From Lycium barbarum (taxonomy: Eukaryota; Streptophyta; Magnoliopsida; Solanales; Solanaceae), in the NCBI RefSeq assembly GCF_019175385.1, contig NC_083346.1, positions 55,271,821-55,335,820 on the forward strand: a stretch of DNA of 64,000 nt, read 5' to 3'. Position 1 is the first letter of the stretch; every line of letters begins with the position of its first letter. A program made the position numbers and the translations under genes. Positions 3,376 through 44,412 of the stretch are shown here, in pieces. The notes beneath the pieces were generated by a model. The model was not told the DNA's origin and did not search any database. It worked only from the letters and a program-made list of their open reading frames with translations.

Positions 3376-3784
3376 ACGCAGGTTCTCCCAGATGAGTTGA
3401 AGATATTATGGAAGATGTTCCAGCGAGGATGGCAGGCTCCATTTGCTCCCGGAGAACTGCCGAGTCAGAATATATGTGTTAAAGGTTCTGTTAATGTTAG
3501 AGACTTTGCAGACAGAGTCGTGGCTTTTGGTTGTCAGTCGGTAAGCGGCTCCGTCAGCTGATATGTCGGTTTGTGTTATGTACTGGATTTTGTATGATCA
3601 TAGATTTGTTCGGCTTGGAAGCTACGAGAAAGAATATTTCAAAAAACAATTTACTATGTATTTTATCTTATTTGATTTAAAAAGTTTGATGTGATTTTAT
3701 GCACAGCAAATTCTGAGGGTTCGCTCGGCCCTAAGTAAGGGTCGGGTGCCCATCACACCCTAGTAAGGTTGGGGTGTGACAAAG

Positions 3785-3824
3785 TCCTGTTTATGGTGTG
3801 TAGCGCGCCACATTATAAACAGGA
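3785..3824 (+). promoter_or_regulatory. Leader hairpin with GCGCGC loop (dimerisation-signal candidate)
   Basis: Sixteen bases from 3785 pair with the sixteen ending at 3824, with two G-T wobbles. The 8-nt loop TAGCGCGC contains the self-complementary GCGCGC. The equivalent hairpin in A1 and B has GTGCAC in the loop. Kissing-loop dimer signals of retroviruses use palindromic loops; the role here is inferred. Confidence 0.6.
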
Positions 3825-4230
3825 GGCTACGGGGCATTTAGGGATTGTTGACCTTTTTTCCGTAATAAGATCGTGCGATAGAGCCAAGACATAGGAAAAA
3901 TAAAACCCTTTCCGTAAGCCTTACATACGATGGAGAAGGGTAAGTGATGATATGGAAAGGTCACGAGGACAAGTCTGGATGTATTTGATCTGTTACCTGA
4001 GACAGAATGTTCTGGGTGGCTAGAATATGATATATAGCTGTATGCTCCGTAAGGTGTTGTTGGTATTTGCTGTGTACATATTTCGGATGATAAGAATTTG
4101 TAAAGGCGACTATTGAAGACCAAAAAGGGTAAAATGGTAATTGTAAAAGAAGGAACGTATTACGAACATGCCTCGGAATCTGTACGACCTCGATTCGCCC
4201 TGAATCATGTAATAAAGACCATAGGAGAAA

Positions 4231-4326
4231 GTGGACGTGATTATGTTGGTATTAAGGCACCGAATTCCGCCAACGTTTCGGGGTTAAGCGTGCTAAAGTG
4301 GATGGATGGGTGACCCCCTGGGAAGT
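4231..4326 (+). other. 5S rRNA-derived domain (array copy 1)
   Basis: About 96 bp are colinear with plant 5S rRNA from its 5' end through the C box. GTTAAGCGTGCT (A-box region) and GGATGGGTGACC plus CTGGGAAGT (C-box region) are kept; about seven bases of the intermediate element are lost, as are the last 15 or so bases of 5S. It is embedded in the element's internal region, so it is not a functional rRNA gene. Confidence 0.8.
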
Positions 4327-4582
4327 ATGCAAAATACTCTAAAGATTTAGCTGTCAGAGACAAATGAAAAGGATAGAGTAACCAAAAGGGAAATTAGCGT
4401 ATGAGGAATGGTTAGAGACCCTAAACGGCCAGATTGTCGTGACAATTGGTAATCTGGAAATTTTTTAAAGAAAGAAAGAACGCAGCGCCTGTGGATGAAG
4501 ATAGAGGGACCCTCCCGAAGTACTATAATACCCCATAAGGTCAGTTGAAAATTCGAGGACGAATGTTCTAAAGGGGGTAGGA

Positions 4583-7500
4583 TGTTATATCCCGTATTTC
4601 GCACATTCAGAAAAAATTTGAAATAATTGTGACTTGTAAGAGGTAAGGCCATATTATGATTTTAATTAACATATAGGTTGTTCATGAAAGGTCTTGGTGT
4701 GGAAATATGGAGGAAGGCCAAGGGCAAAATTGGGAATTTCGGAAATTAGTTTCGGGAATTACAAATTATGATCCATCATTAATTGGGCTCAAAAACAAAA
4801 AGAAATTGAGGCCCAATATTGAGAAGGGTGGCCGGCCATAGTCCATTAAGATGAGCCCAAGCCCATGTTTTAATTCAAGTCATGTGGTAATTAAATAAAT
4901 AAAGGGGCCATGGTTTATTGTAGACGATTCATGAAAAAAAAAATAAAGAGCAAGAACAAAAGGAGGGGGGTTTCGGCCCCTTCAAGAAAAAGAGAAAAAA
5001 ATTTCCAAGTCCTTCAATTGTGATCCAAAAATCATGATTTTCTAGAAATATTACTAACTCAAGGATGCTCTTCAACATGATATAAGTTTTAAGGCAAGAA
5101 AGTGCTTGTGTTGGCAAGTGGAAGTTTGAAGAAGGTTGGAGAAAGAGGTAAGAATCAATTCCTTTTTATTATGTTATGAAGGTTTGTTTGTGTTGTAGTA
5201 TGTAGAAATGAATAAAAAGTGTGAAATTGATGTGTTATGGGTGTGTTTGTATGTGGCCGGATGTGGTGGGTGTTGGAGAGAAGATGAATTTATTTTACTT
5301 AGTGTATTAATTGTGTTGTTGTGTTCTTATGGGGTAAATGAAGGAGAATAGTTCAAGTTGGTATGAAATCCATTGTTAAGTTGTTGTAGGAAAATATGTA
5401 ACTTTATTATAGTTTATGTAATTATGAGAATGAAATTGTAAGATGCAAATTGTTGTTGTTGTAAATGAAATTGAGGATAAGAATATGTTGTGGATGTTTA
5501 TATTGAAGATTGGAAGTTTAGGTGAATTATGGTTTTGGTGGAAGTTTGTATATTTTGTGAATATTTTGTAGAAACGATATGAAATGCTTCCGAATTGTAT
5601 TGTGATGATCTTGGTTGGGAATGAATATGAGAATGTTGGTATTGATTTGAAAATGGGAAGTTGGAATAAAAGATATTGCGTTATGTTGGAAAGAAGATTA
5701 GTTATGCTATAATGTATTTTGTGATGATGGTTGATGTTGTTGGTATTGCTGGGTTGTTGTTGTCGATATTTTGGGCCGAGATGATTCTCGGGGCAGCGAA
5801 ATTATAGGGGAAATGCTGCCCAAATTTTTTTGTAGACAAGTGATGAACTAAAGATTTGAATGCTAAAAGTCTTACTATTGACAATTGGTAAATATGACCA
5901 TTTGTAGATTTTGGGCGAAACGAGAATTGAGTTTGGACGAGCATAAGGTGCAAGTGAGGTATGTAAAGCTATCCCTTTTCTTCTCTTGGCATGTCCTAGG
6001 TGTACTAGATTCGGATTTGAGCCTCGTAGGTTATTCTGCTCATGGGAATGCGAGTCTGAATTTTTGGTACTATTCATCCAGCACAATTGAATTATAGCCC
6101 TTAAGTTTTGTTGGAAAACTGTTCAAACATCCATAACCCGTACAGACGTGATCGGCTCGCTTTGAAACCTTCATGGATGACTCCATAGAGTCCAATGTTT
6201 GTAATTTATATCCGCCACCTCGACTTGACCCGAGGTGGGCCCACATGTTCCGAAACTTCCTACGTTTGTCTCACTTGAGCTATTTTTGTGTGATATAAAA
6301 GTAAGACTTTCGTCTATGAATCTAAGACTCCGTTTGATTCATTCCATAAGTCATTGGAAAGCTCCTTAATGTGAATATCCTGATGTGAACATGTAATTCG
6401 ATATAAGGAGTCTGCTATGAGTAATTTGATATAGGTATGTTAACAGAAACATCCTGACACAGGTAATCTGATATAAGTATCCGAAATAAGTATTCGATTA
6501 TGAATAATCTGTTACGAATATCCTGGTAATACATTCGATTCCTTCATCGGGTTTTAATTTATGTGCACCTAGTTTCTTACTAATCCGCTCGTATATACGC
6601 TATGATCCCTTTCACCGAGTTCCGGGCCGGTATGTATCATGCGTATGGTTCGCCGAGTCCTTTGTCTAGGAGTCGGGTTCCATGTATGTAATTTCGAAGT
6701 ATGATGTGTCCGACTCCGGGGTACTGTGGTATATGTCCGTCCCCGGTTGCCGTGTATATGGAGTATGATGTGTTCGGTTCCGGATTACAGTGGTATATGT
6801 CCGTCTGCGGTTACCGTGTACGGTTCTGGGGTACTGTGGTATATGTCCGTCCCCAGTTACTGTGTATATGGATTATGATGTGACTGGTCCTCCGGTTCTC
6901 GTGGTATATGTTCGGTTCCCGAGATACCGTATACATGTTATGAAATCTTCCAGAGCATGATGTGTTATGGCGCCAGAGACGGGAGTAGCGACCATGTTCC
7001 TGCGCCCTTTGTATGACTTTGGTATGCATCAGTTGTGGTTGAAAAGTAAGTATTCTGATATTCTGGATAAGCTACTTACCTTTGGCATTTTTCTGATATA
7101 CGATTTTGGTATACATGAATCTATTCACCGAGTCCCTCACCGAGGGCCGGGGCACGTTGTATGTATGTGTGATGCATGATTCTGACATGTGTGATTTATG
7201 TTTGGAAAGTAATAAATTTTGCTATTGACCGCTGGACCCCTGACCGCGGTATGTGCGACATTGACCGCGGTATGCCGCATTTGTGATGTTGACCGCTGGA
7301 CCCCTGACCGCGGTATGTGCGACATTGACCGCTGAACCCCTGACCGCGGTATGTTGGGTTTGGGATGCTAACCGCTGGACACTTGGTCGCGGTATGTGTG
7401 ATAGTGACCGCTGGACTTTTGGTCGCGGTAATTGTGTGTTTGATTTTCTGTGTGTATGAGACGGAAACGTTTTTCAAAGGAAAGCAAAGTATTTTGGCAT

Positions 7501-8107
7501 TTTGATTGCCGTATTTGTCTTCCGGAACCTGTTATGTATGATTTATACGTCAGCTGCAACACTTTGGTATTCTGGATATTGTGCTCACCTTCTGTACATT
7601 TTACTTCGGTTATGGCTTCGTTTTTTTTGGTGTTTCATGCCTTACATTCTCAGTACATATTCCGTACTGACCCCCTTTCTTCGGGGGCTGCGTTTCATGC
7701 CACGCAGGTTCTCCCAGATGAGTTGAAGATATTATGGAAGATGTTCCAGCGAGGATGGCAGGCTCCATTTGCTCCCGGAGAACTGCCGAATCAGAATATA
7801 TGTGTTAAAGGTTCTGTTAATGTTAGAGACTTTGCAGACAGAGTCGTGGCTTTTGGTTGTCAGTCGGTAAGCGGCTCCGTCAGCTGATATGTCGGTTTGT
7901 GTTATGTACTGGATTTTGTATGATCATAGATTTGTTCGGCTTGGAAGCTACGAGAAAGAATATTTCAAAAAACAATTTACTATGTATTTTATCTTATTTG
8001 ATTTAAAAAGTTTGATGTGATTTTATGCACAGCAAATTCTGAGGGTTCGCTCGGCCCTAAGTAAGGGTCGGGTGCCCATCACACCCTAGTAAGGTTGGGG
8101 TGTGACA
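4583..8107 (+). repeat. LTR2 of the array
   Basis: The LTR is 3525 bp, TG...CA, and differs from LTR1 by scattered substitutions and a 21-bp gain in the minisatellite. The splice-donor-like block is at 5956-6000 and the double hairpin at 7638-7701. Confidence 0.9.
7226..7431 (+). repeat. Palindromic minisatellite in LTR2, 5 units plus one partial
   Basis: Same unit as at 2921-3105, with an added truncated unit near 7262-7288. Confidence 0.85.
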
Positions 8108-8110
8108 AAG

Positions 8111-8150
8111 TCCTGTTTATGGTGTGTAGCGCGCCACATTATAAACAGGA
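8111..8150 (+). promoter_or_regulatory. Leader hairpin with GCGCGC loop, second copy
   Basis: Identical to 3785-3824: 16-bp stem and loop TAGCGCGC, three bases after the LTR end because the PBS has been deleted. Confidence 0.6.
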
Positions 8151-8556
8151 GGCTACGGGGCATTTAGGGATTGTTGACCTTTTTTCCGTAATAAGATCGT
8201 GCGATAGAGCCAAGACATAGGAAAAATAAAACCCTTTCCGTAAGCCTTACATACGATGGAGAAGGGTAAGTGATGATATGGAAAGGTCACGAGGACAAGT
8301 CTGGATGTATTTGATCTGTTACCTGAGACAGAATGTTCTGGGTGGCTAGAATATGATATATAGCTGTATGCTCTGTAAGGTGTTGTTGGTATTTGCTGTG
8401 TACAGATTTCGGATGATAAGAATTTGTAAAGGCGACTATTGAAGACCAAAAAGGGTAAAATGGTAATTGTAAAAGAAGGAACGTATTACGAACATGCCTC
8501 GGAATCTGTAAGACCTCGATTCGCCCTGAATCATGTAATAAAGACCATAGGAGAAA

Positions 8557-8652
8557 GTGGACGTGATTATGTTGGTATTAAGGCACCGAATTCCGCCAAC
8601 GTTTCGGGGTTAAGCGTGCTAATGTGGATGGATGGGTGACCCCCTGGGAAGT
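8557..8652 (+). other. 5S rRNA-derived domain (array copy 2)
   Basis: Same as 4231-4326 with one base change near the A-box region (AATGTGG instead of AAAGTGG). Confidence 0.8.
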
Positions 8653-8909
8653 ATGCAAAATACTCTAAAGATTTAGCTGTCAGAGACAAATGAAAAGGAT
8701 AGAGTAACTAAAAGGGAAATTAGCGTATGAGGAATGGTTAGAGACCCTAAACGGCCAGATTGTCGTGACAATTGGTTATCTGGAAATTTTTTAAAGAAAG
8801 AAAGAATGCAGCGCCTGTGGATGAAGAAAGAGGGACCCTCCCGAAGTACTATAATACCCCATAAGGTCAGTTGAACATTCGAGGACGAATGTTCTAAAGG
8901 GGGGGAGGA

Positions 8910-11900
8910 TGTTATATCCCGTATTTCGCACATTCAGAAAAAATGTGAAATAATTGTGACTTGTAAGAGGTAAGGCCATATTATGATTTTAATTAACATA
9001 TAGGTTGTTCATGAAAGGTGTTGGTGTGGAAATATGGAGGAAGGCCAAGGGCAAAATTGGGAATTTCGGAAATTAGTTTCGGGAATTACAAATTATGATC
9101 CATCATTAATTGGGCTCAAAAAAAAGAAATTGAGGCCCAATATTGAGAAGGGTGGCCGGCCTTAGTCCATTAAGATAAGCCCAAGCCCATGTTTTAATTC
9201 AAGTCATGTGGTAATTAAATAAATAAAGGGGCCATGGTTCATTCTAGACGATTCATGAAAACAAAAAAATAAAGAGCAAGAACAAAAGGAGGGGGGTTTA
9301 GGCCCCTTCAAGAAAAAGAGAAAAAAATTTCCAAGGCCTTCAATTGTGATCCAAAAATCATGATTTTCTAGCAATATTACTAACTCAAGGATGCTCTTCA
9401 ACATGATATAAGTTTTAAGGCAAGAAAGTGCTTGTGTTGGCAAGTGGAAGTTTGAAGAAGATTGGAGAAAGAGGTAAGAATCAATTCCTTTTTATTATGT
9501 TATGAAGGTTTGTTTGTGTTGTAGTATGTAGAAATGAATAAAAAGTGTGAAATTGATGTGTTATGGGTGTGTTTGTATGTGGCCGGATGTGGTGGGTGTT
9601 GGAGAGAAGATGAATTTATTTTACTTAGTGTATTAATTGTGTTGTTGTGTTCTTATGGGGTAAATGAAGGAGAATAGTTCAAGTTGGTATGAAAATCCAT
9701 TGTTAAGTTGTTGTAGGAAAATATGCAACTTTATTATAGTTTATGTAATTATGAGAATGAAATTGTAAGATGCAAATTGTTGTTGTTGTAAATGAAATTG
9801 AGGATAAGAATATGTTGTGGATGTTTATGTTGAAGATTGGAAGTTTAGGTGAATTATGGTTTTGGTGGAAGTTTGTATATTTTGTGAATATTTTGTAGAA
9901 ACGATATGAAATGCTTCCGAATTGTATTGTGATGATCTTGGTTGGGAATGAATATGAGAATGTTGGTATTGATTTGAAAATGGGAAGTTGGAATAAAAGA
10001 TATTGCGTTATGTTGGAAAGAAGATTAGTTATGCTATAATGTATTTTGTGATGATGATTGATGTTGTTGGTATTGTTGGGTTGTTGTTGTCGATATTTTG
10101 GGCCGAGATGATTCTCGGGGCAGCGAAATTATAGGGGAAATGCTGCCCAAATTTTTTTGTAGACAAGTGATGAATTAAAGATTTGAATGCTAAAAGTCTT
10201 ACTATTGACAATTGGTAAATATGACCATTTGTAGATTTTGGGCGAAACGGGAATTGAGTTTGGACGAGCATAAGGCGCAAGTGAGTTATGTAAAGCTATT
10301 CCTTTTCTTCTCTTGGCATGTCCTAGGTGTACTAGATTTGGATTTGAGCCTCGTAGGTTATTCTGCTCATGGGAATGCGAGTCTGACTTTTTGGTACTAT
10401 TCATTCAGCACAATTGAATTATAGCCCTTAAGTTTTGTTGGAAAACTATTCAAACATCCATAACCCGTACAGACGTGATCGGCTCGCTTTGAAACCTTCA
10501 TGGATGACTCCATAGAGTCCAATGTTTGTAATTTATATCCGCCACCTCGACTTGACCCGAGGTGGGCCCACAAGTTCCGAAACTTCCTACGTTTGTCATA
10601 TAAAAGTAAGACTTTTGTCTATGAATCTAAGACTCCGTTTGATTCGTTCCATAAGTCATTGGAAAGCTCGTTAATGTGAATATCCTGATGTGAGTATGTA
10701 ATTCGATATAAGGAGTCTGCTATGAGTAATCTGATATAGGTATGTTGAGAGAAACATCCTGACATAGGTAATCTGATATAAGTATCCGAAATAAGTATTC
10801 GGTTATAAATAATCCGTTACGAATATCCTGGTAATACATTCGATTCCTTCATCGGGTTTTAATTTATGTGCACCTAGTTTCTTACTAATCCGCTCGTATA
10901 TACGCTATGATCCCTTTCACCGAGTTCCGGGCCGGTATGTATCGTGCGTATGGTTCGCCGAGTCCCTTGTCTAGGAGTCGGGTTCCATGTATGTAATTTT
11001 GAAGTATGATGTGTCCGGCTCCGGGGTACAGTGGTATATGTCCGTCCCTGGTTGCCGTGTATATGGAGTATGATGTGTTCGGTTCCGGAGTACTGTGGTA
11101 TATGTCCGTCTCCGGTTACCGTGTACGGTTCTGGGGTACTATGGTATATGTCAGTCCCCAGTTACTGTGTATATGGATTATGATGTGACTGGTCCTCGGG
11201 TTCTCGTGGTATATGTTCGGTTCCCGAGATACCGTATACATGTTATGAAATCTTCTGGAGCATGGTGTGTTATGGCACCAAAGACGGGAGTGGTGACCAT
11301 GTTCCTGCGCCCTTTGCATGACTTTGGTATGCATCAGTTGTGGTTGAAAAGTAAGTATTCTGATATTTTGGATAAGCTACTTACCTTTGGCATTTTTCTG
11401 ATATACGATTTTGGTATACATGAATCTATTCACCGAGTCCCTCACCGAGGGCCGGGGCACGTTGTATGTATGTGTGATGCATGATTCTGACATGTGTGAT
11501 TTATGTTTGGAAAGTAATAAATTTGGTTATTGACCGCTGCAGCCCTGACCGCGGTGTGTGCGACATTGACCACTAGACCCCTAACCGCGGTATGCCGCAC
11601 TATGTGATATTGACCGCTGGACCCCTGACCGCGGTATGTGCGACATTGACCGCGGTATGCCGCATTTGTGATGTTGACCGCTGGACCCCTGACCGCGGTA
11701 TCTGCGACATTGACCGCTGGACCCCTGATCGCGGTATGTCGGGTTTGGGATGCTAACCGCTAGACACTTGGTTGCGGTATGTGTGATAGTGACCGCTGGA
11801 CTTTTGGCCGCGGTAATTGTGTGTTTGATTTTCTGTGTGTATGAGAAGGAAACATTTTTGAAAGGGAAGCAAAGTATTTTGGCATTTTGATTGCCGTATT

Positions 11901-12494
11901 TGTCTTCCAGAACCTTTTATGTATTATTTGTACGTCAGATGCAACAGTTTGGTATTCTGGCTATTGTGCTCACCTTCTGTACATTTTACTTCGGTTATGG
12001 CTTCGTTTTTTTTTTGTGTTTCATGCCTTACATGCTCAGTACATATTCCGTACTGACCCCCTTTCTTCGGGGGCTGCGTTTCATGCCGCGCAGGTACTCC
12101 CAGATGAGTTGAAGATATTATGGAAGATGTTCCAGCGAGGATGGCAAGCTCCATTTGCTCCCGGAGAACTGTCGAGTCAGAATATATGTGTTAAAGGTTC
12201 TGTTAATGTTAGAAACTTTGCAGACAGAGTCGTGGGTTTTGGTTGTCAGTTTGTAAGCGGCTCCGTCAGCCGATATGTCGGTTTGTGTTATGTACTGGAT
12301 TTTGTATGATCATAGATTTGTTCGGCTTGGAAGCTACGAGAAAGAATATTTCAAAAAAAAAATTTACTATGTATTTTATCTTATTTGATTTAAAAAGTTT
12401 GATGTGATTTTATGCACAGCAAAGTCTGAGGGTTCGCTCGGCCCTAAGTAAGGGTCGGGTGCCCATCACACCCTAGTAAGGTTGGGGTGTGACA
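8910..12494 (+). repeat. LTR3 of the array
   Basis: The LTR is 3585 bp, TG...CA, visibly more diverged from LTR1 and LTR2 than they are from each other. The splice-donor-like block at about 10281-10327 has lost the GT (GAGTTATG). The minisatellite is longest here. Double hairpin 12024-12087. Greater divergence suggests it is an edge LTR of an older insertion, while LTR1 and LTR2 arose by recent duplication (inference). Confidence 0.88.
11531..11815 (+). repeat. Palindromic minisatellite in LTR3, 7 units plus one partial
   Basis: Longest version of the ACCGC...GCGGT array. It contains the unit orders seen in LTR1 and LTR2, as expected if those contracted. Confidence 0.85.
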
Positions 12495-14003: not shown

Positions 14004-14525
14004 TATGTGTATGATTCATGATTTGAAATATACTACTTTATTACATAAAGGAAACGTATTGATGATTTTACACAGTCATACTGGTTCTGGAGAGTTTCTA
14101 TTTTTGGCTATAATCCCTTGTTCTGTACTTCATGCCTTACATACTCGGTACATTTTCCGTACTGACCCCCTCTTCTTCGGGGGCTGCGTTTCATGCCCGC
14201 AGGTACAGACGTTCACTTGAGTGACCCGACAGCTTAGGTCATCTTTCTGCTGCTTTGGAGTGCTCCCTTGTTCTGGAGCTCACATTTGGTACAGACTCTT
14301 TCATTGTACATCTGTATGTATATATTCAGGGGTACGGCGGGGCCCTGTCCCGTCATATGATTATGTTATGTTTGTTAGAGGCCTGTAGACATATATGTGG
14401 GTCTGTATAAATTAATATATGTTGAATATGGATAAGATATGGATATGTCGGATTGGTAAGTAGGTATGTATGGGTGTCCAGCTCGGGCACTAGTCACGGC
14501 CCACGGGGCCGGGTCGTGACAAAAG

Positions 14526-14724: not shown

Positions 14725-15800
14725 ATGCCTCCGAGAAAAATAACAGCTGCCCAGAAGGGAAAGTTAGCAGTAGTTGGGGAGACTAGCTAGGCCCAGAGAG
14801 TTACCAGGGCCCGTGCCCAGACCATGCCCGATATTACGCCCCAGTCAACGGGTTTTGCTACACCCCCACCATTAGAGGAGCCTGGAGCAGCAGCCGCTGC
14901 CACTATGGATCAAGAGGCGGTTCCACCATTAGCTCCAGAGGCCCCAGCGCCCGAGCCTCCAGCTCCCCAGCCAGTGGCGGAGGACAGGGCGATGAGAGAT
15001 GCGGTACAGTTATTGATGAGATTAGTAGCGGGGCAGGCTCGCAGATGCGGGCTAGGGGGTGATGATGTGGATAGACGTGACAGTTTGAGGGTTCGTGATT
15101 TCTTGACCTGTAATCCCCCAGAGTTCTATGGGTCTAAGCCCGAGGAGGATCCCCAGGATTTCATTCGATAGATGCAGCGTACGTTGAGACTAGTCAGGGC
15201 TTCTGAGACTGAGTCTGTCGAGTTGGCTTCACATAGACTGCGAGATGTAGCGATTAATTGGTACGAGTCCTGGGAGCTGTCCAAAGGCGAGAATGCTCCT
15301 CCAGCTGTGTGGGACGAGTTTACAGCCGCCTTTCTCGGCCATTTTCTGCCTCCCGAGATGCGGCGAGCGAGGGTTGACAGATTTTTACAGCTGAGACAGA
15401 GGGGCAGGAGTGTTCGAGAGTACAGCCTAGAGTGACTCCCTGGCCAGATATGCGCCCACTATCGTGGCTGATATGACTGACAGGATGCACCGATATGTGA
15501 TAGGGTTGGATGACTACCTAATTGATAGTTGTATGGCGGTGGCATCTCAGTCCGGTATGGATATTGCACGGTTGCAGGCATATGCACAGGGAATGGAGGA
15601 CCGACATAGAGGGCGTCAGCCCGATAGGGATCGTGATAGGAGGCAGCCCAAGAGGGCTAGATCAGCTGGATATTTTGGGGAGTCTCGAGGCTGCCAGCCT
15701 CGGTAACAGTATAGCAGACGTTCTTCTCAGCCATCACGGAGTGTACCCCTACAGTCTACTGGTATGAGATTTGATAATACAGGATATTCAGGAGCGGGCC
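14725..15800 (+). pseudogene. gag of A1, 5' part (capsid region), interrupted
   Basis: The reading frame starts at ATG 14725 with a short basic N-terminus (MPPRK). It is broken by TAG at 14788-14790 and TAG at 15169-15171, then by a 2-base loss near 15432, and continues in another frame from about 15437 to the solo LTR at 15801, with a further TAA near 15704. Residues between the breaks match the retrotransposon gag domain ([44 protein letters not shown]). A Pro/Ala-rich linker precedes the domain. The product would be the capsid/nucleocapsid protein. The TAG at 15169 is at the same codon as one in element B. Confidence 0.85.
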
Positions 15801-18800
15801 TGTTATATCCCGCATTTTTTGCAATCGGATAATTCAAGACAATCGCGGGAAAACAACAAGCAAGGCAATATTTTATTTTGTTTGGCACATGAGTTGCTTA
15901 TGAAAAGTCTAGAAGTGGAAATATGGAGAACGACGAAGGGCAAATTTGGAAGTTGGAAAAATTGTTTTCATGAATTACAAGAACTATCCCAAAAGCAAGT
16001 GGGCTTGAAATTTTTAAGCAAAAAGAGAGGCCCAACCGGCCATGCAAGTGGCTAGGCCCATTTGGAATTAAAAATTTTGGGGAATAAAATATGACTTTTC
16101 ATCCATATCTCATAAGTTTCAAGAAATTTCAAGAAAAGGAGAACAAGAGAAAGAGAGAGCAAAGTTCTAGGGCCTTTCGGCCAAGAGGAAAATTACCAAG
16201 AAAAATTGATAAAAATTTCTCCAAAAATCATTTCCTACCAACCTAAGGATCCCTAACAAAGTGGAGTGGTTGTTGAAGCAAGAAGAACACATAATCTTGC
16301 AAGTTGGAGGATTTAGTCAAGTGAAGAAACAAGGAAAGAGGTGAGGTTCAATCCCTTCTTTATATGTTTTTGATGTTTGTATATGATATAGTATGTGGAA
16401 GTGGATGAAATTCATGGAGAATATTGATGTTGTGTTGTAGCCGTGAGGAGTAGCATGTGTATATATGTGTAGGAATCATATTTCAATTATTTTGTCTAGT
16501 GTTTGGTTGTTATGATTGTGAATGATATGTGGAAAATGGAAGTTGAATGAATTTGGAGAGAATGTAGTTGTGTGTACATGATGAAGCCGTGAGTGTTGTG
16601 TGTGTGAGTGTGGCCGTGTATGCGTGTGGTGGTGTGGCCGTGTGGTTTTGGTGTAATATGGAAGAGAATGAGTCAATTTTATGTAGTGTTTTGGTTGTTG
16701 TTATGTTGAGGATTCTATGTTGCTAATGAATCTCTAATGACCTTAGTGAAGTTGTTGTAGTAGAGACTTGTTTAGAAATTATATGAATGGAATGTAATGT
16801 TTCTTTGCATGCATGAAAGACAATATGATTAGTATGATGCTGATGGAATATATATATTATAAGGTTGCTATTGTGCTCATTGAAGTCGGAAGGTTTTGAA
16901 GAAAGTAGTAAATTGAGATCATGCATCTATAATGGAGTATGTGAATTGCTAGTGTGATTGTTGAGTTATGTTAATAGTTTGGCCGGATTTGAATTCCCGG
17001 GTTGTTGTTGATTGAGAACTTGCTAGGTGAAGGTTGAGGATGGTATAATTACAGAGGAAGTGCTGCCGAAATTTCGGTAGCCAAGTATTACCTTAAGATT
17101 TCAACTCTAAGTATCCTAATAAGAGTTTTGGTAAATATGACCAATTTGCAGATTTTGACGAAATTGCACCGTGAATTTGGAATAGCAAAAGGAGCGGAAA
17201 GAGGTATGTAAGGCTTCACCCTTCTTTCTATGGCATGTCTTAGATGTAATAAGTCGGGTACGAGCCTCGGGGACAACCCTAGTCCCCGGAATCCGCACCT
17301 AAAGTTTTTCACTTTTTGTGCAATAGAATTGAACTAGAAAGTGTGCAAATGATGAAAAGACCTCTTAAACCCTTAGAACTTGCATAAGTGGGACCCGATT
17401 ACCCTAGAACCCTCTCAAGTAATGACATGACACGTAACATATGTAAATCATATACGCCACCCCATCCGGCCCGAGGTGGGCCCGTTACCCTCAGATTTTC
17501 CTTACAGTCTTGCTTGACTTACTTGAAGTGAATCCAAAGGGAACCTTTGATCCCGATTTCGTTACCAAATGATAAGTACTATGACTCCTCTAACGAGGGC
17601 ACTTCCATGACGATAATGATAACAATGATGTTAGATAAGAGGATATGCCTATGATACGTACTACCGGAACGACTCTATGACTAAGATGACTAAGCTAAGT
17701 ATCTTATGTAAACATGAAAATGATAAACTAATTTTTGAATCCTATTTATATTTCCTAGCTATGACTTTATTTTCTAAAGATTTCAAAGTCTATGAACTGT
17801 CATCTATGATGCCCACGATTTCATTCTACGTTTACTTTAATATTATTCTCCATTGATAGTCTCACCTTAAAATACTCGTTCCTTCAAGGTGAGACAAAGC
17901 GACCACGAGTATTCTATAATGTAATCGGAGGTTACCGACTTTATGTCACTCCGATAGACGTAACTTTCTTTGGACTCCCGTGCATGCTGGTTATATGATA
18001 TAGGGATATGTGTATGGACATGTATATGTATATAGGACAAGTATTTGTATATAAGACATGTATATGTATAATAAGAGAAGTAAATGTACACGTATATGTA
18101 TATGGGGAAAGGGGAAGGGCCACTATTATATCACCACCTGATTCAGCTGGATTTCATCCTGGACGCGGGATGCCCGGACGCGGGATATGGGAGAGCCGTA
18201 CGCAGCGTCTGTATATATATGATGTATGATATATATGATATGATGTGTTGGGACACCGTTGGGGAGGGGGGTTGGGAGAGCCGATGTATTCAGCGTCTGT
18301 AAATGTGAGTAAAAGATACCGTTTACTGAATTGTACTATTTTCTGTATACGAGAATAAGGGACACCGTGTTCTGAAAAAGGGGCAATGCTATTAAATGAT
18401 ACGCTATGCCAAGATATACTACGATATGAGATGCTACGACATGACGTGATACGACACGCTATGATAGAGCAGCACATAATATGATAAAATATGACACGAT
18501 ATAAATCCTATTTTCTGTGTCTACGAGAAAGAAATGTCTCAAAGAGAAAAGGACAAGCCTACATGATAGCCGGCCTGAAACAGAGGCCTTCCCACGTACA
18601 GGTTACTTTCCTGCCCCGTTATATGTCCTGTGACTCCATGATATTGTTAATCGTACTCTATGTTACTGTTTATATTATCTTTTATGCCTTACATACTCGG
18701 TACACTATTCGTACTGACGTCCCTTCTTGTGGGCGCTGCGTTTCATGCCGCGCAGGTCAGCAGACAGGTGGACGTGATCCTTAGAAGCTCTACCAGCCAC

Positions 18801-19175
18801 ACTTGACAGCGCTCCAGTTGTTTCGGAGCCTCACTCCAGCGGTACTATTTTGTGTATGTACATTCGGGCACGACAGTACTCGGCCCTTTCTATGTATAAG
18901 TGTACTATGTCTAGAGGCTCATACACAGATATGCACAGTCAGCTATGTACAGTTAGATGTGTTGTATTTTGAATTGTTCGCGTCCCGGTATAACGCGATA
19001 GCGGAAATCTTACTACTTTTGTTTACGGTGACGCTGCTAATGTTAATGTTCAGAAAGGAAAAAAACATATGGCTTTGTTTACACGGCTTGCCATGAGGTA
19101 AAGGTAATATGATAGATAAGGGGTGCTAGGTACAAGTATCGGGTACTCGTCACGGCCCCTAGTCGGGTCGTCACA
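15801..19175 (+). repeat. Solo LTR E1 inserted in the A1 gag
   Basis: This 3375-bp LTR (TGTTATATCCCGC...CGTCACA) has no internal region. It is flanked by GGGCC (15796-15800) and GGGTT (19176-19180), a target duplication with two C-to-T changes. The gag frame resumes at the right flank exactly as expected from the same region of element B. Splice-donor-like block 17201-17243, double hairpin 18685-18749. It is the same family as E2 (56004-59412). Solo LTRs arise by recombination between the two LTRs of a full insertion. Confidence 0.9.
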
Positions 19176-19680
19176 GGGTTAAAGTTCCAGGGCCTCGGAT
19201 TTGCAGCAGAGCCGTGGGTTCAGTCAGACGAGGCTATCTATGCCTCAGTGTCCTCGGTGCGGCAGGCGCCACCCGGGGGAATTTCGTATCGCCACCGGTG
19301 CCTGTTTTTCTTGTGGCCGCCAGGGCCATGTTATTAGGGAGTGTCCGTTTAGGGGTGGTCCAGGTGGTTCGGCCCAGCCCACCGGATCAGTTGCTGGTTC
19401 ATCTTCCCCTTTTGTTGCTATGCGGCCGACACCGACAGGTCGCGGTAGAGGTCGAGGCGGAGCTCCCGGTTCTAGCGGTCCTCTGAACCGCTTATATGCT
19501 TTGGCCAGCCGACAGGACCAGGAGGCATCACCAGACGTGGTTACAGGTATACCGTTTATCTTCTACTGAAATGTATATGCATTGATAGATTCAAACCCTA
19601 TTTTATTATATATTCCCCCCTGGTTGCTAGAATAACCGAAATTGATAGGACCGTTTGAGGCAGCTATTCATACAGATAGA
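19176..19680 (+). pseudogene. gag of A1, 3' part (zinc knuckle) and start of protease
   Basis: The open frame 19201-19569 carries a [11 protein letters not shown] motif followed by the knuckle CFSCGRQGHVIREC (CX2CX4HX4C), an RNA-binding nucleocapsid motif, then a Gly/Arg-rich linker and [19 protein letters not shown] as at the Gag-protease border of element B. A stop at 19567-19569 ends it. Traces of protease (VYALID, then a GPFEA-like segment) run on to about 19680 with more stops; the DPGS active site is not preserved. Confidence 0.85.
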
Positions 19681-19689: not shown

Positions 19690-21705
19690 TTGAGAATTTG
19701 AAAGGCTAACTCGGTAACTACATAATCAGAAAAATAAAAGACCCTCTCTAGATTGGAGTGGGACCCGCTACGAGAACTTTCCGGAAAATTTTAAGACCCC
19801 GACTTACCCTAGATTATGTGAAAGAGGTCGTGCGGGGAAGTGGGTGCAATTATACCAGCATTAACGTATCGAAATGCATTGAAGTTTCGAGGTTAAGCGT
19901 GCTAGGGCCAGAGCAATTTTGGGATGGGTGACCCCCTGGGAAGTGTATCAAAATTTCTACAAATCTAGTTATAAGAGACAAATGGGAATTTGGAGTAACC
20001 TAAAGGAAATTAGAGTATGTGGAGTTGTTAGAAACCTTATAGAGGTCGCGTAGGCCGAGACGGACTAGATTGGTGAAAAGGAAGAAAGAGCAACGCAGCT
20101 CAGGAATTAGAGTAAGTTTGAATAAGCGTTTGGAAATGTTTTGTAAGAGAAATGGCAGTAATGTATATGTATGCATAGGACATCCCATTTATGACTATAT
20201 TGATCGATAGGTGGACCCTAACAACCAGTGTTGTAATGTATGGAAGACATTAACTGGACGAAATGCAAGAGACAAGGCGAAAGGTATGGTACAGATGTTA
20301 TGAGGTAAACTGATACTGATTTCACTATAGGTTAAGATTAGAAAATTCTAATACAACGATATTTTGAAAGAAAAGAGAGTAAGTAAATGAAAGGTAAGGA
20401 GATCAAAATGTCGGAAAAATTGAAAGGTAAGAAACACGATTGAGAAAAACCTCTAGAAGCGCCGACGGGCGAAGTATGAAATTATTCGCGTAGAAATTTA
20501 AGGGACAGGTCTGAAAGGGGACTAGAATGTAATAGTATAGGACCAAAAGAGAAACAATCTTAAGGGAGGTCAACGGTGGAAATGGGACAAACATATGGAA
20601 GTACGGAGGATATTTTAAATAGGTTGGCGATAGCCGACTGACTACTTATCAAAGGAAGGATAATTCCATAGTTATGTGGGTATAGTTGATTTGAACATAG
20701 AGAAGCCTTTCTGGAAAGTGACTTAAGAATGGAACCGATTCGCACGAATAAAAGTAATATCTTACGACCTTCAGAACCGATGCTACAAACAATAATAGAA
20801 GAAACTACTCCCCAAGAAAAGGATTCAGGATACTGATGGCTTGATTGAGGGAAAAGAGAGTGGCTAGGAAGAAAGTAAGTGGAAACGGATATGCATCAAG
20901 AGGTTGATGACATTGTTAGATATAAAAGGAAGAGGTATGTCAGAATGGAAAGAAAAGTAAGTGTTGAGAATGGAAGCCCTTATGAGTATTCCGATTAAAT
21001 ACGAGAACATAGTTAACAAGGAGATAGAAAGGACAAACTCCATAATGAAGGGATTGCAATTGTAAGAGGATCGCGGAAAGCGATGGTTACGTAAAGGACA
21101 TAGACATATATAAACCCTCTTAATAAAGGGGGGGAGAACATACTAGAATTGAAACGAATTATGATGGTCTGAGTTCCAGAAGAAAGCAATAAAGAGAGTA
21201 AGAAAGGTATACAGACTAAATCCATAAGGTCAATGAAGAGCATAACAAATCCAAAAGACGTCTCGGATGACAACAATTATAATGAAGTAACAATAGTCGG
21301 TAGTTGATAACTTTCCGAAGGAAGGAAGCGCGCTGCTTACATAGACAAAAGATAAAAGAATCCACCGGGTATTGGAAGATAGTTCATGGACCATTAATCA
21401 TACTGAACATGGGGGGTATACGCTATGGAAATTGTAAGAATAATTAACATAAAGCTATGCCCAATTTTTAATGATAAGGAGCCCACGCCGACGAGCTAAC
21501 AAGGACTGACGATTGATGCAACGATCACCAATCTAAGGGAGTTACAGACGGGTGTACTGGCATCGAAGAAGGTGAGGAAAGGAAATGAGGAAAAGTTGCG
21601 ACAAGACCCCAAGGATGTTGCGAGTTAAGAAATTAACTGAACCCGAATCATAAGCTGTCATGAGTATAGTCAGACTGCTAAAGACGAGAAATGGAAAAGC
21701 AATAT
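19690..21705 (+). other. Non-coding tail of A1, homologous to the internal region of element D
   Basis: About 2 kb without a convincing protein. Blocks such as CACTATAGGTTAAGATTAG and GTCGCGTAGGCCGAGACG match D around 45740 and 45455, and the order is the same. It opens with the 5S-like domain and occupies the place where protease, RT and RNase H should be. At about 21705 it joins an LTR at the shared octamer ATGTGTAT. Confidence 0.7.
19842..19944 (+). other. 5S rRNA-derived domain in A1 (best preserved)
   Basis: 103 bp align without gaps to bases 1-103 of plant 5S rRNA (consensus recalled, hand alignment, about 78 matches). GTTAAGCGTG and GGATGGGTGA are identical, CC(C)CCTGGGAAGT nearly so, and GGGTGC..ATACCAGCA marks the 5' end. 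The final 15 or so bases are not recognisable. The A box and C box of the internal RNA polymerase III promoter lie in the two best-kept parts. Confidence 0.88.
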
Positions 21706-22414
21706 CATGTGTATGATTCATGATTTGAAATATACTACTTTATTACATAAAGGAAACATATTGGTGATTTTACACAGTCATACTGGTTCTGGAGAGTTTC
21801 TATTTTTGGCTATGATCCCCTGTTCTGTACTTCAAGCCTTACATACTCGGTACATTTTCCGTACTGACCCCCTTTTCTTCGGGGGCTGTGTTTCATGCCC
21901 GCAGGTACAGACGTTCACTTGAGTGACCCGATAGCTTAGGTCATCTTTCTGCTGCTTTGGAGTGCTCCCTTGTTCTGGAGCTCACATTTGGTACAGACTC
22001 TTTCATTGTACATGTGTATGTATATATTCAGGGGTACGGCGGGGCCCTATCCCGTCATATGATTCTGTTATGTTTCTTAGAGGCCTGTAGACATATATGT
22101 GGGTCATGGGTTGCTATTGTTCGGTTATGTGTGTGATTTGCGTCTAAGAGGTACTATCTGCTATGACAGCCTTAACGACTTGTATATATATATATATATA
22201 TATACTTATGTATATGCTTTGGGTGATATGTTCCACGACAACCTTAGCGGCTTCTGTATGATATGTATGCATATGCGATCGCTTCAGATTAATATCTGTA
22301 TAAATTAATATATGTTGAATATGGATAAGATATGGATATGTCGGATTGGTAAGTAAGTGTGTATGGGTGTCCAGCTCGGGCACTAGTCACGGCCCACGGG
22401 GTCGGGTCGTGACA
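21706..22414 (+). repeat. 3' LTR of A1, truncated to its last 0.7 kb
   Basis: Nearly identical to 14004-14521, but keeps about 190 bp (around 22106-22295, with an AT run near 22181) that the 5' LTR has lost. Ends GGGTCGTGACA at 22414, followed at once by integrase coding sequence. Its first two kilobases are missing. Confidence 0.85.
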
Positions 22415-30063: not shown

Positions 30064-31135
30064 TGTTACACCTCGAAATTTTTTTGTTCATGCACAGTGA
30101 ATAGACTGAAGATGAGTACGACTTATACGATGTTTTGATAAGTAAGAAATAGCATTTGACGATCCTAATCAAAATTTTAAAGACCTTGAAGGTGAGGGAA
30201 GAAAGTTGTCAAGAAAGGCAAGGCATACGTTGTGTATCAGAAAGAATTATGAGTAACGAGTCAATGATGATTTAATGATGCTTTGGAGAATAGTAATAAC
30301 GTCCCTTAGATTGGTATTGAAGTGTTAAACAAGTGTTAAGAAGGTTCCATAAGGATTGGAGATCAAACGAGTCGACGAGAACGAAATCGGATTAGCTATG
30401 CATTATACGGCCCAACATACTGGCCTTATAAATTATACTGGCCGTATGTTAGGCCGTATATTTAGCCAAGAGGGGCAAAGTTCGCTGGACCAAACATACG
30501 GCCGTACATACGGCCCGTATAAAAGATACGGACCGTATGTTGGTCCGTATATCCTTGTCGGGACAGATTTCATGATTTATATGAGAGGACCCAAGTTCAT
30601 TTTATTTCATTTCATTTTCACCTCTCACTTCAAGAACACTCTAGAAAACCCTCTCTACTCTTCATCCACAAGAAACCAAGGGAAATCCATGATCAACTTC
30701 ATCAAATCCACAAAATCAAGTGTATGAAACCTATCAAAGTTCATCTAAGTCAAGGAATCCCAAAGGAAGTGAGCTAGGGTTTTTTTGCAAGAAGAGAATT
30801 CCCACTCAAGGCTTATTCATCCATTATCTAAGGTGAGTTTTATGATCATTCTTGGTTGTTTAAGGTGGTGAAAGTTAAAAACACTTGGATTGTAGAATGA
30901 TATAGGAAATGGGTCATGAATGTGTGAATAGTGACCTTGTTGGGTAAAGGTTTGGATTGAGCCATAATTATCGATATGTTGTGATTGTATATATGTTATG
31001 AATGACGTTTGGAACGTGGGATAGGTATTATATGTGAGAAAATGCAATAATGAATTATGATCATGATTATGGAGAAATTGGAGTGAAATGGTGAAATGTG
31101 GGTAATGTAGATGAATGGTGGTTGTTGTTTGCGAT
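30064..31135 (+). repeat. LTR of element C (F family), first piece
   Basis: Starts TGTTACACCTCG, as does the solo LTR at 54161. Contains the CGTATGTTGG palindrome cluster 30400-30563. Stops at the target duplication GCGAT (31131-31135) of element D; the sequence resumes at 50345, as judged from the uninterrupted copy near 55215. Confidence 0.85.
30400..30563 (+). repeat. Cluster of CGTATG-type palindromes
   Basis: Many copies of ATACGG(A/C)CCGTATGTTGG(T/C)CCGTAT-like inverted repeats within 160 bp. The same cluster is at 54508-54662 (plus) and 53945-54100 (minus) in F-family LTRs. Could form hairpins or act as a dense protein-binding array. Confidence 0.75.
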
Positions 31136-31713
31136 TGTTATAGCCCGCATTTTGTACGTCCGGATATTTCGAGATCGACGTGGCAAATGAAGGGCAAGAC
31201 CATTTTCAAAAATTATTTTTGATGTATAAGTTGTTATGAATATTGTTTATGAATATTATTGTATGGAAATATTGAGAAAGGTTAAGGGTAAAAAGGGAAA
31301 TTCGCAAAATGGTTCATGGTAATATTGTGGAAGCCTGGGGGCAAAATGGTAATTTCACAAATATTCAAGAAAATTCTTGAAATTTCCAAGTTGCTCGTGT
31401 GGCATGGGAAACATGTGCTCACATTTTTATTAAATGGGGGGCTAATTATAAATAATAAAAATACATGGGCCAAAGCTTGCTTAAGAAGACACTTAGTCTT
31501 CTTTGACCATTTCAAGAAGTTTCAAGAAAATGGAGAAGGGAGACATGTGTCCATACTCCTACTCAAGGGACCTAAATATATATATATATAGCTAAATGGG
31601 GAAAAGAATAGACAAGATATATTTGTCTTCATCTTTTAAAAAGATGAAGAAACTTGGAGAAAATAGAAGAAAATTCCAAGGGGCCATTCGGCCATGGCTA
31701 TGGAGAATTGACT
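31136..31713 (+). repeat. 5' LTR of element D, first piece
   Basis: Starts TGTTATAGCCCGC. Closely matches 47488-48066 of the 3' LTR, which passes uninterrupted through the site where B is inserted here. Confidence 0.9.
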
Positions 31714-33655
31714 TGTCACGACCCAACTCCGTAGGCCGTGACTCGTGCCCGAATTGGACACTCATATTATATGTTAACTATAGTCATTTACAATTAGCAT
31801 GTCATGATCTCATTTGTATATAAAAAGATAGGGAGTTATTTTAAATTCGTCATGTTTTGTATGTCTTAGTCACCTGTCTCCCGAGGAGTTGCACTTTTCA
31901 AACAACAACATATATATATATATAATCCTAAGCAAGCCGACAAGGCTGCCACGATATACAAAATACCAAACATACACATATATGCAAGCCGACAAGGCTG
32001 CCATTATGAATGGGTACGCCCCAAACTTAAGTCAAAACATAAAACGCATCAACAACTGTAAACAGACCCACACAGATGTCCACAGACCTCTAAGAGTAAT
32101 GACCGTATTATGTGGCGGGACAGGGCCCCGCCGTACCCAAACAAACACATACGAGCACAACATAAGGAGATTATACCACAAGCTAGCTCCGGAACAAAGG
32201 AGCAGTCCAAAATAGTTGAATGATGACCTAAGTTGGCGGATCTCCGAAACGAGCGTCAGTACCTGCGGGCATGAACGCAGCCCCCCGAAGAAAGGGGGTC
32301 AGTACAGAATATGTACTGAATATGTAAAGCTTGAAACATAGTAATAGACTTATATTGAGACAAGGTGTATAGGATTCAATGCAACAACCAGACTTTCATA
32401 AATTTTGCCTTTGAATATATTTCATCTGTATCGTTCTCATATCAATGTCATTATATAGTTTCGTAATCAAAGCTGCATAGTCATTCTGTATATAACATAT
32501 ATAACGTGTCCCGGCCCTTTTTATGAGGGACTCGGTATTTATAATCATGGCATCATAAACATAAACATGTACGTGTCCCGGCCCTTTAATGAGGGACTCG
32601 GTAATAATGAATATATATATGCCCTCCTGGCCACCATCTCCACATCATCATATTATCATATCGTCATATCATCATCATATCATTATGTCATTATATCATC
32701 ATCATACCATCATATATATATATATATATAACGTGTCCCGGCCCTTTAATGAGGGACTCGGTGAATAATATAGTAAACATGCGCATGAAAACGTATCTTC
32801 AACACATGATTCATTTTAAATTCGAGCAAAAACAGTTCAATATCCAACATGCAACATCACAACCAAACTCCTACAATCTTTGTTCATTTACATATGTTGA
32901 TACATATTCAATTCACCAACAATACATGCACAATGAAATCAGTCATGAACTCACCTCACACACGGCTCACTCCCTACTTCAACTACAACCACAATCCAAC
33001 AACAACTTGCATGAACTATACATTCAAATCATCATGCAACACAAGAAACAACAAACATTCTTACCTTTCAATCTTGTGCTTCACTTGGCCGAAACTTCAA
33101 TCTATTTGGGTGCTTCACTTTCTTTTTTCTCTTCAACAACTAACACACCTTCTTATACACTAGATGAGGAGTAAATTTGATGGAGAAAAACTGGAATTTT
33201 TGGGCACAATTTCACCTCACTCTCTCGGCTAGCTCTTAGCCGAGAGCACCTCTCTCTACACTCTTCTTTCTCTAACTTTGGGTGTCGAAATGAATTGCTA
33301 AAGTGGAGTGAATCAGAATTTTGTGTCTATATGTCCCCCCTCCTTGACATGGACATGTGGATCACACTAAATTGAGTCAAGATTCCTTGACCACAACCTT
33401 GAAAGGCACGACCAAACATGGTCCAAAAGTGGACTGATTTTTGGTCTTTCCAATCCCACTTATTAATCCAATTATGGTTAGTTTAATCCCAATTTTCCAT
33501 TAATAGTTTAATGCCACACGAAAAATGTGGATAAATTGTGACTCGACACGAAACCGGAAGTTAAAATCTCTACTTCATATCTTAAGATAGTCTTGCCTTT
33601 AACTTGTCGCGCTTATTTTAAAACGTCCCGACGTATGAAAATACGGGACATAACA
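31714..33655 (-). repeat. 3' LTR of element B (internally deleted)
   Basis: 1942 bp. Begins TGTTATGTCCCG and ends GGGTCGTGACA on the minus strand. Compared with the 5' LTR it lacks the equivalent of 39978-41235. Contains the double hairpin (32268-32330), two CAAGCCGACAAGGCTGCCA repeats near 31935 and 31985, hairpin modules and an AT run near 32711. Confidence 0.92.
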
Positions 33656-33692
33656 TCCTCCCCCCCTTTAGAACATTCGTCCTCGAATGTTG
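33656..33692 (-). promoter_or_regulatory. Polypurine tract and adjacent inverted repeat of B
   Basis: The minus strand reads an inverted repeat (33671-33692; arms like AACATTCG/CGAATGTTC) and then AAAGGGGGGGAGGA (33656-33669) directly at the LTR border. 33693-33781 is untranslated. Confidence 0.88.
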
Positions 33693-33781
33693 ATTTTTTT
33701 TTTCCCGTTAGGTTCTATAAGGGTTTTGGGAAGGGTTTTCCTTATTGCTAACATATAAATTGAGCAGACAATTTAACACAA

Positions 33782-34891
33782 TCAAGTAAAGGAGTTTAAA
33801 TTACCTGTAGATGTGGAAAACAAGTGAGGATATTTCTTTTTCATCTCCTCTTCAGCCTCCCAAGTCATCTCCTCCCTATTATTGTTCTGCCACAACACTT
33901 TAACCGACGCTACATCTTTTGTTCGTAACCTCCTGATTTGTTGATCAAGTATGGCAATAGGTTGCTCTTCATATGAGAGCTCCTCTGTTACCTGAATATC
34001 ACCTGTAGGGAACACCCTGGAAGGATCGCCTATATACTTCCGAAGCATTGACACATGGAAGACCGGATGTACAGCTGCTAAGTCCGCTGGTAGGTCTAAC
34101 TCGTAAGCAACTTGGCCTACTTTACGGATGACCTGATAAGGTCCAATGTACCTTGGGCTCAACTTCCCTTTCTTGTCGAATCTCATAACACCCTTCATGG
34201 GTGACACTCTCAAGAACACCCAATCGCCAACCTGAAATTCCAAGTGTCGACGTCGATTATCCGCATACGCCTTCTGCCGACTCTGAGCTGCCAGTAATCT
34301 TTCCTGAATAAGTTTCACCTTATCGACAGCCTGCTGAACCATATCTGGGCCTATCAGCTTAGCCTCGCCAACATCAAACCAGCCTATAGGGGATCTGCAT
34401 TTCCTGCCATGCAGGGCTTCGTACGGCGCCATCTGAATGCTAGAGTGGTAACTATTATTGTAAGCAAACTCGATAAGCGGCAAGTGATCCTCCCAGCTGC
34501 CTTTGAAGTCAATAACACAGGCTCTCAACATATCTTGTAGCGTCTGGCTGGTGCGCTCAGCCTGCCCGTCAGTCTGAGGATGAAATGCGGTGCTGAGACT
34601 TACCTGTGTCCCTAATCCCTCCTGGAAAGATCTCCAGAAGTTAGCTGTAAACTGGGCCCCTCTATCTTCGATAATAGTTGTGGGAACTCTATGAAGTATC
34701 ACTATTTCCTTAAGATACAATCGGGCATAATCCTCAGCTGAGTACGAAGTCCTGACTGGAAGAAAGAGGGCTGATTTTGTCAGTCTATCAACAATAACCC
34801 AGACAGAGTCATTTTTCCGTGGAGTGCGAGGGAAACCTGTGACGAAGTCCATATTAATTACCTCCCATTTCCAGGTTGGGATTTCCATCTC
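33782..34891 (-). CDS. Integrase core and chromodomain-like segment of B
   Basis: 368 residues from ATG 34888. Catalytic D14, D75 and E111 (spacing 35) are present; D75 sits in IEDRGAQF where SDRG is common. [18 protein letters not shown] and [21 protein letters not shown] form the C-terminal region. [39 protein letters not shown] is the chromodomain-like tail. Closely related to the A2 product. Confidence 0.94.
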   Translation of the reverse strand, partial: [369 protein letters not shown]

Positions 34892-35722
34892 CTACAATAG
34901 CCCTCCAGGCTTCTGGTGCTCTATCTTAACCTGCTGACAATTTGGGCACTGGGCCACAAATTCGGCTATGTCCTTTTTCATACCATCCCACCAGTACAAA
35001 CACCTAAGATCATGATACATTTTTGTCGATCCCGGGTGAATAGAATAACGAGCACAGTGTGCTTCCCCCATTACCTGCTGCCGCAACCCTGCAACCTCAG
35101 GTACACATAATCTGTCTCTGTATCGTAGTACTCCATCGGCTAACATCTTAAATGGGGTCTCGTCCTTCTGAAGTGTTGTATCTCTATAATGTACCAGAAC
35201 AGGATCCTCATATTGCCGCCTCTTTACCTCTTCTACAATAGAGGACTCAGCAACACCTCGTACAATAATGCTACCATTATCAGAATCAGGCAAACGAACT
35301 CCAAGACTAGCTAGCTGATGAATCTCACGGACTATCTCTTTCTTTTCTGGTTGTACGCCTGCCAAACAAGCCATAGATTTACGGCTGAGTGCATCTGCTA
35401 CCACATTAGCCTTTCCTGGGTGATATAGAATATCGACATCATAATCTTTCAGCAACTCTAACCATCTCCTCTGTCGGAAATTCAGCTCCTTCTGCTTAAA
35501 GATATACTGGAGACTTTTATGATCTGTATAAATATCAACATGCACGCCATACAGATAATGTCTCCATATCTTCAAAGCATGTATCACTGCTGCCAACTCC
35601 AGGTCATGTGTAGGATAATTTCTCTCATGTTTCCGAAGTTGTCGGGAGGCATAGGCTATAACTCTGCCGTGCTGCATCAACACGCAACCCAACCCAACAC
35701 CGGAAGCATCACAATAGACAAC
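34892..35722 (-). CDS. RNase H and integrase zinc-domain segment of B
   Basis: RNase H degrades the RNA template strand: [10 protein letters not shown] (first catalytic Asp), [34 protein letters not shown] (catalytic Glu region) and [29 protein letters not shown] marks its end. The last 50 residues hold the integrase HHCC finger (HPGSTKMYH...CPNC). Ends at TAG where Gln is usual. It starts in frame directly after the previous stop, without an ATG. Confidence 0.93.
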
Positions 35723-38799: not shown

Positions 38800-38838
38800 T
38801 TCTACTAGACACAGTCTGTGGACACTCCGAGGATTTGA

Positions 38839-38852: not shown

Positions 38853-38856
38853 CTTT

Positions 38857-42093: not shown

Positions 42094-42098
42094 TGACT

Positions 42099-44409: not shown

Positions 44410-44412
44410 AAG

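Follow-up and report, generated by a model that had tools for sequence, protein, structure and literature searches.

In the literature consulted, LTR retrotransposons with a 5S-derived promoter are miniature elements that carry it in the LTR, a position from which it can serve replication. In a 64,000-nucleotide stretch of Lycium barbarum DNA (hereafter the window), the same module is constrained at a site that is unable to make genomic RNA, inside the body of long-LTR elements of the Ty3/gypsy type. What would such an element gain from a Pol III promoter or a TFIIIA site at this place?

Results

The 5S match at 19842–19944

A domain on the plus strand at 19842–19944 aligns without gaps with bases 1–103 of 5S rRNA; both the coordinates and the length given in the original prediction are correct. 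The roughly 78 identities counted there by hand compare with 76/103 computed against Arabidopsis 5S (E = 8e-16 in 64 kb) and 79/103 against the host genome's own 5S gene, which was taken from an Rfam search of the whole genome. Box A (5S bases 51–62; 19892–19903) and box C (bases 81–92) do not differ from 5S at any base; box C together with its 3′ extension (bases 81–103; 19922–19944) is identical to host 5S, and the boxes are separated by the native 18 bases. The likeness to 5S stops at base 103: in 34 aligned copies, bases 104–120 match at only 0–5 of 17 positions.

With the Rfam 5S model (RF00001), the 19842 copy alone scores 31.8 bits, which is under the gathering score of 38 bits (E = 7.8e-5 over 401 bases and 0.013 over the whole window); a true 5S gene scores 115.3 bits. 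Of 14 relatives searched, from 30 then in hand, ten match at E 0.05 or better and five pass the gathering cut-off, the best at 61.2 bits. At the gathering score, the covariance search proposed as a check has no hit for the window copy and hits for five of the relatives. The prediction was to be given up if no 5S model match was found, or if the match proved to be a chance one without kept boxes; neither was the case, as relatives pass Rfam and the boxes are the best kept part in samples drawn independently of them.

Elements that carry the domain in the window

The window contains five 5S-derived domains including that at 19842, all on the plus strand and all in sense to their own element. The other four had been overlooked: 45266–45360 (76/104 identities, E = 1e-13), 4233–4326 (68/103; Rfam 24.4 bits), 8559–8652 (67/103; Rfam 21.1 bits) and, at 1–20, the terminal 20 bases of one more domain, which is truncated at the window edge (19/20 identities). 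In the full copies at 45266, 4233 and 8559, the spacer between the boxes is shorter by the same 9 bases, and the 45266 copy has in addition one base inserted after box C.

The element around the 45266 domain, on the plus strand, has a 5′ LTR in two parts, 31136–31713 (96% to 47488–48061) and 42094–44409 (95.6% to 48057–50339), a PBS-like site at 44413–44423 (a motif match), a 3.08-kb internal region at 44410–47487 that holds no frame of 170 aa or more, a polypurine tract at 47477–47487, and a 3′ LTR at 47488–50339. The 5-bp target duplication GCGAT is found at 31131–31135 and 50340–50344. A long G run lies in the body at 47226–47245. Inside the 5′ LTR sits a minus-strand gag-pol Ty3/gypsy element (31714–42093), whose coding region is divided by stops into three consecutive frames and whose flanks read as a TGACT duplication. 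Around the nested elements are repeats of 0.8–1.1 kb (30064–31138, 53380–55226), mutually inverted and direct and 71–83% alike.

The element around the 19842 domain, also on the plus strand, comprises the end of a 5′ LTR at 14005–14521 (97% to 21707–22414, in two pieces), a PBS-like site at 14526, a gag with a broken frame at 14725–15800 (77% against that of the minus-strand element), the continuation of this gag with its zinc knuckle at 19183–19569 (PF00098, E = 9e-5), a non-coding region with the 5S domain at 19801–21714, and a truncated 3′ LTR at 21707–22414. The gag is interrupted by an LTR-like insertion at about 15801–19175 and stops 272 bases before the 5S domain. The non-coding region is colinear with 45225–47159 of the other element in two stretches: 19801–20435 with 45225–45844 (69%), and 21579–21714 with 47024–47159 (70%).

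The LTRs are about 2.9 kb long in the 45266 element and 3.5 kb in a tandem array at 278–12494, which holds the domains at 4233 and 8559. The array repeats an LTR and a body of about 0.8 kb with a period of 4305–4327, and long stretches of it are 99–100% identical. As the array bodies have no PBS-like site, growth by recombination rather than by retrotransposition is likely.

Copies across the genome

We searched the 1.67-Gb host genome (164 contigs) for a perfect box A and a perfect box C 5–30 bases apart, and found 8358 places; the reversed pattern, searched in the same genome as a control, had no match. This null result and the Rfam scores of the relatives led us to reject a chance match: the match of 19842–19944 to 5S is real. 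The count of 8358 takes in true 5S genes (at least the 266 places with the exact core of such genes, plus variants) and, since the pattern demands perfect boxes, it cannot show conservation. None of the first 100 places listed has the core of a true 5S gene; a hand count of their box spacings gave 18 bases in 93, 9 in six and 16 in one. Annotation of 5S genes by promoter boxes can count thousands of retroelement copies.

Thirty loci cut out of the genome form, together with three window copies, 12 groups at about 75% identity. Classified by DNA matches to the classified window features, 29 of the 30 are, by the order of those features, the same kind of long-LTR Ty3/gypsy-type element with the domain inside the body, where it is non-coding or downstream of gag. 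An LTR end, leader or gag lies upstream in sense in 28 loci and an LTR start lies downstream in 12, with features on both sides in 11 and downstream only in one; one locus (L013) has no classified feature on either side, and antisense element matches occur in one locus only (L018). The original prediction had placed the domain in the internal region of long-LTR elements, outside the LTRs and away from the ends, and this placement holds for the window copies and for the 29 loci. No DNA match to the reverse transcriptase of the window features was obtained in the 30 loci; L038 has an RNase H–integrase match downstream, so that part of pol may persist in some copies.

A protein-level search of eight stretches of about 9 kb found gag upstream of the domain in three, in one of them 3.5 kb away, and no protease, reverse transcriptase, RNase H or integrase core in any of the eight. 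Remnants of an integrase C-terminal region or chromodomain lie downstream in sense in two stretches, and a small antisense one lies in a third. The remnants at L069:6452–6911 and L075:6298–6406 (coordinates in element sense) lie downstream of the 5S domain and upstream of the 3′ LTR; in these two copies the gag end and the chromodomain end are kept and the middle of pol is gone. Direct repeats flank the domain on both sides in five of the eight stretches. Those of L076 are 99.4% identical over 2567 bases, and L076 is young; its 478-aa gag frame, which matches capsid and zinc knuckle, stops 230 bases upstream of the domain, and no protease, reverse transcriptase, RNase H or integrase match was found in it. 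Its length is about 9 kb by the positions of repeat and polypurine tract, the 5′ end lying beyond the stretch read. The annotations of Lycium barbarum and Solanum dulcamara include gag relatives of about 490–500 aa. Elements without pol where checked, gag-only or non-coding, thus carry 5S bases 1–103 in sense inside their body. Scans of viral contigs (two by pattern, one by protein) and of prokaryote contigs (by pattern) had no match.

Box A and box C are kept while the rest of the domain diverges

To measure constraint, we drew two samples by flanking DNA that excludes the domain (flanks 45380–45850 and 19970–20430). These gave 5386 and 6177 candidates, of which the best 40 in each case were scored and 30 and 20 of those were read; samples drawn in this way lean towards copies like those of the window. 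The domain is kept in 29 of the 30 copies of the first sample, one of which is the window's own (it was not found in L044), and in all 20 read of the 39 others of the second, that is, in 49 of 50 copies over both. In the first sample, box A has 8 mismatches, box C 7 and bases 94–103 5, together 20 of 986 sites. Pairwise differences amount to 0.045 within box A and to 0.037 within box C; the corresponding values are 0.170 for the remainder of the domain, 0.208 for the 100 bases upstream, 0.175 for the 100 bases downstream and 0.125 beyond; the pairwise value of 0.177 for bases 94–103 is spoiled by the base inserted in the reference copy, and direct best-match counting, a method that leans low, gives 5/290. 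In the second sample, comparison with the window copy shows differences at 13 of 678 box sites and at 460 of 3225 sites elsewhere.

Overall, the boxes differ at about 2% of sites and their surroundings at 12–21%, so that change at box sites is about seven times less than at neighbouring sites in these flank-drawn samples; Fisher values for boxes against surroundings are nominal, as related copies are treated as independent. Box A (51–62) and box C with its 3′ extension (81–103) are almost unchanged across at least a dozen diverged groups. That the A-box and C-box regions are the best kept had been noticed in the first place from the window copy, and it holds in samples that were drawn by flanks and not by boxes. 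The retention of promoter signals while the rest mutated suggests that the elements use the domain.

Most of the domain has indeed diverged (the copies have 66–92/103 identities to host 5S, the closest relative 92/103), as would be expected if an old 5S insertion without function were passively carried along. The roughly sevenfold lower change at box sites speaks against such a relic, which we consider very improbable. Nor would gene conversion with true 5S genes rescue it: conversion would restore the whole domain and not the boxes alone, and we reject it, by inference, as the cause of the kept boxes.

RNA structure and coding capacity

The domain could be kept for its RNA, its DNA or a peptide. 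We tested the 5S fold on 26 sequences, two of which are true 5S; in these, helix I is paired in 46% of cells, helix II in 73%, helix III in 83%, helix IV in 100% and helix V in 36%. The fold as a whole has 66.6% of cells paired versus 64.7% in shuffles (reached by 1 of 500) and 32 cells changed on both sides versus 20.6 (reached by none of 500), and it beats all six slid versions in paired cells. There may be some inherited or kept structure in the domain. These values, together with the pairing of helices III and IV and with the sense orientation, would suit a function at the level of RNA, in which L5 or TFIIIA, bound to the domain within Pol II genomic RNA, would aid export, stability or packaging. 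However, related sequences can exceed such shuffles without structure; helix IV falls inside box C and so provides no independent evidence for structure; the strands opposite box A have changed more than box A itself; and helices I and V are paired in fewer than half of their cells. We consider a role of this kind improbable. Unlike a functional 5S gene, which has the full 120 nt and a closing helix I, the domain has lost bases 104–120.

In 65 of 79 copies, the frame through the domain can be read from box A over 18 codons without a stop, and the usual change in length is 9 bases, features that a peptide encoded there would explain. The same open frame is, however, present in true 5S; an early stop occurs in 14 of the 79 copies; a median of only 9 codons is open upstream of box A; and in 61 native-length copies the differences outside the boxes are 0.251, 0.290 and 0.252 for the three codon positions, with no third-position excess. 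On these codon-position differences we reject a coding peptide, which has a negligible probability. The short reading frame across the domain, used as a protein query, yielded no candidate. Given the loss of helices I and V and the lack of a coding signal, a DNA-level role, as Pol III promoter or TFIIIA site, is the likeliest function that we infer. Among the functions proposed originally, those acting on DNA are accordingly the ones favoured; binding of ribosomal protein L5 and RNA localisation have become less likely, helices I and V not being kept.

Signals for and against Pol III transcription

Box A and box C stand in the native order and at the native spacing of a type 1 Pol III promoter. 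The kept boxes, the native spacing, the sense orientation and, in 15 of 30 loci, a TTTT run no more than 24 bases past the end of the domain favour a Pol III site; the host 5S gene itself has TTTT after it. Against such a site are the 9 bases fewer between the boxes in the copies at 45266, 4233 and 8559 and in 6 of the 100 listed places. The first T run after the domain is at a median of 191, not farther than in shuffles (248). TTTT is also found inside the domain in 14 of the 30 loci, and in the 19842 copy as well; four loci have it both inside and after, and five in neither place.

The upstream signals of plant 5S genes are given in PMC9043955 as a TATA-like motif near −28/−30, GC near −12 and C or T at −1; in that study of Solanum 5S spacers, more than half of the species have T at this last position. 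In 33 copies, C at −1 and GC at −12/−11 were not found in any; GC is present somewhere in −14 to −9 in 26, and TATA in −35 to −20 in two. Some 30 to 10 bases ahead of the domains lies a block with an alikeness of 0.72, against 0.60–0.63 in its upstream neighbours (13 group representatives); plant 5S upstream signals are not at their usual places in it. The missing upstream signals speak against strong Pol III transcription, as do the inner TTTT runs, which should stop Pol III early.

Kept boxes without upstream signals, and with TTTT inside many copies, would also be expected if the boxes were bound by TFIIIA and TFIIIC without productive transcription, either as a chromatin element like extra-TFIIIC sites or as a sponge that would divert TFIIIA from 5S genes. 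The excess of box pairs (8358) over exact true-gene cores (266) in the assembly would suit this reading; this ratio is uncertain, as rDNA arrays may be collapsed in the assembly. The native spacing in most copies and the TTTT after the domain in half of the loci nevertheless resemble a transcription unit, and we regard binding without transcription as unlikely, while granting it an appreciable chance.

Discussion

Our analysis suggests that these elements maintain a 5S-type internal control region as DNA, with a short sense Pol III RNA as its likeliest output; judged on sequence, we give this reading an even chance of being correct. The 5S domain would have been acquired once, long ago, in a common ancestor. 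The module retained since then would be a 5S-type internal control region acting as DNA, i.e. a TFIIIA site and, with it, a site for TFIIIC, TFIIIB and Pol III. Transcription would start near base 1 of the domain and end at a nearby T run, so that an RNA of about 115 nt is predicted where TTTT directly follows the domain. For reverse transcription, the full-length RNA must continue to be made by Pol II from the LTR, since a promoter that lies downstream of the PBS is unable to yield a complete template. Copies that have the domain would be favoured by the short RNA or by the factors bound, for example if these keep the element open. A dual-polymerase design, in which Pol II makes genomic RNA from the LTR and a Pol III RNA or TFIIIA site aids persistence, possibly, given the copy number, in competition with 5S genes for TFIIIA, is conceivable, and we put it forward tentatively, as somewhat less than an even prospect.

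How do these elements relate to known ones? The gag-pol Ty3/gypsy element at 31714–42093 has the same PBS and polypurine-tract motifs and a related leader and gag; unlike the elements with the domain, it encodes reverse transcriptase, RNase H and a chromodomain-like integrase, and there is no 5S-like match in it. It is a possible kind of helper. LARDs consist of a long non-coding body, with PBS and polypurine tract, between long LTRs; TR-GAGs have LTRs, PBS, polypurine tract and a gag frame without pol, and are small in total size. By these definitions, the present elements resemble both in having a gag-only or non-coding body between long LTRs, with PBS and polypurine tract: the 45266 element has what defines a LARD (LTRs of 2.9 kb, a body of 3.08 kb, a PBS-like site, a polypurine tract and a target duplication), and L076 has the gag frame without pol of a TR-GAG. 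The 5S domain is part of neither definition, and we know of no such domain in either class. Both are named as non-autonomous LTR elements in PMC10552921.

The original prediction had pointed to Cassandra elements, with 5S sequence in their LTRs, and to SINE3 elements, with 5S sequence at their 5′ end, as the known cases and had set the present elements apart from both; the positions of LTRs and other features bear this out. 5S sequence in the LTRs is the hallmark of Cassandra (PMC10853983), which likewise is an LTR retrotransposon without pol that has taken up the 5S internal promoter region, with the boxes kept and the sequence between them variable (PMC10853983, PMC10886601). In Cassandra, however, the 5S part lies in the LTRs of an element under about 1 kb; here it lies in the body, the full window domains being located between LTR end and polypurine tract or between gag and LTR and 29 of 30 genome loci being alike, and the LTRs alone measure about 2.9 and 3.5 kb, with gag present in some elements. 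Ajax, a nemertean TRIM, likewise keeps only the promoter part of 5S and has lost the 5S rRNA fold, as described in PMC10886601, but carries it in the LTR of animal elements of 421–434 bp. The same source gives at most 1.3 kb and a promoter in the LTR for Ajax and the proposed TRIMp3 class, a class of miniature elements with a small-RNA promoter in the LTR from which the present elements differ by position and size. SINE3, a short non-LTR element, is likewise a mobile element with a 5S-derived Pol III promoter, which stands at its 5′ end (PMC10886601); here LTRs, a PBS-like site, a polypurine tract and a 5-bp target duplication are present. We therefore reject membership in Cassandra, SINE3 or TRIMp3 on domain position and element size.

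Nine unknown potato repeat families are mentioned in a Solanum repeat survey as matching non-coding RNAs including 5S rRNA (PMC4524691), and these could be the same thing as the present elements. Among the open-licence literature matches listed, there was no report of large Ty3/gypsy elements whose body contains a 5S domain. The promoter module is known from other elements, and its place and the kind of element that carries it look new.
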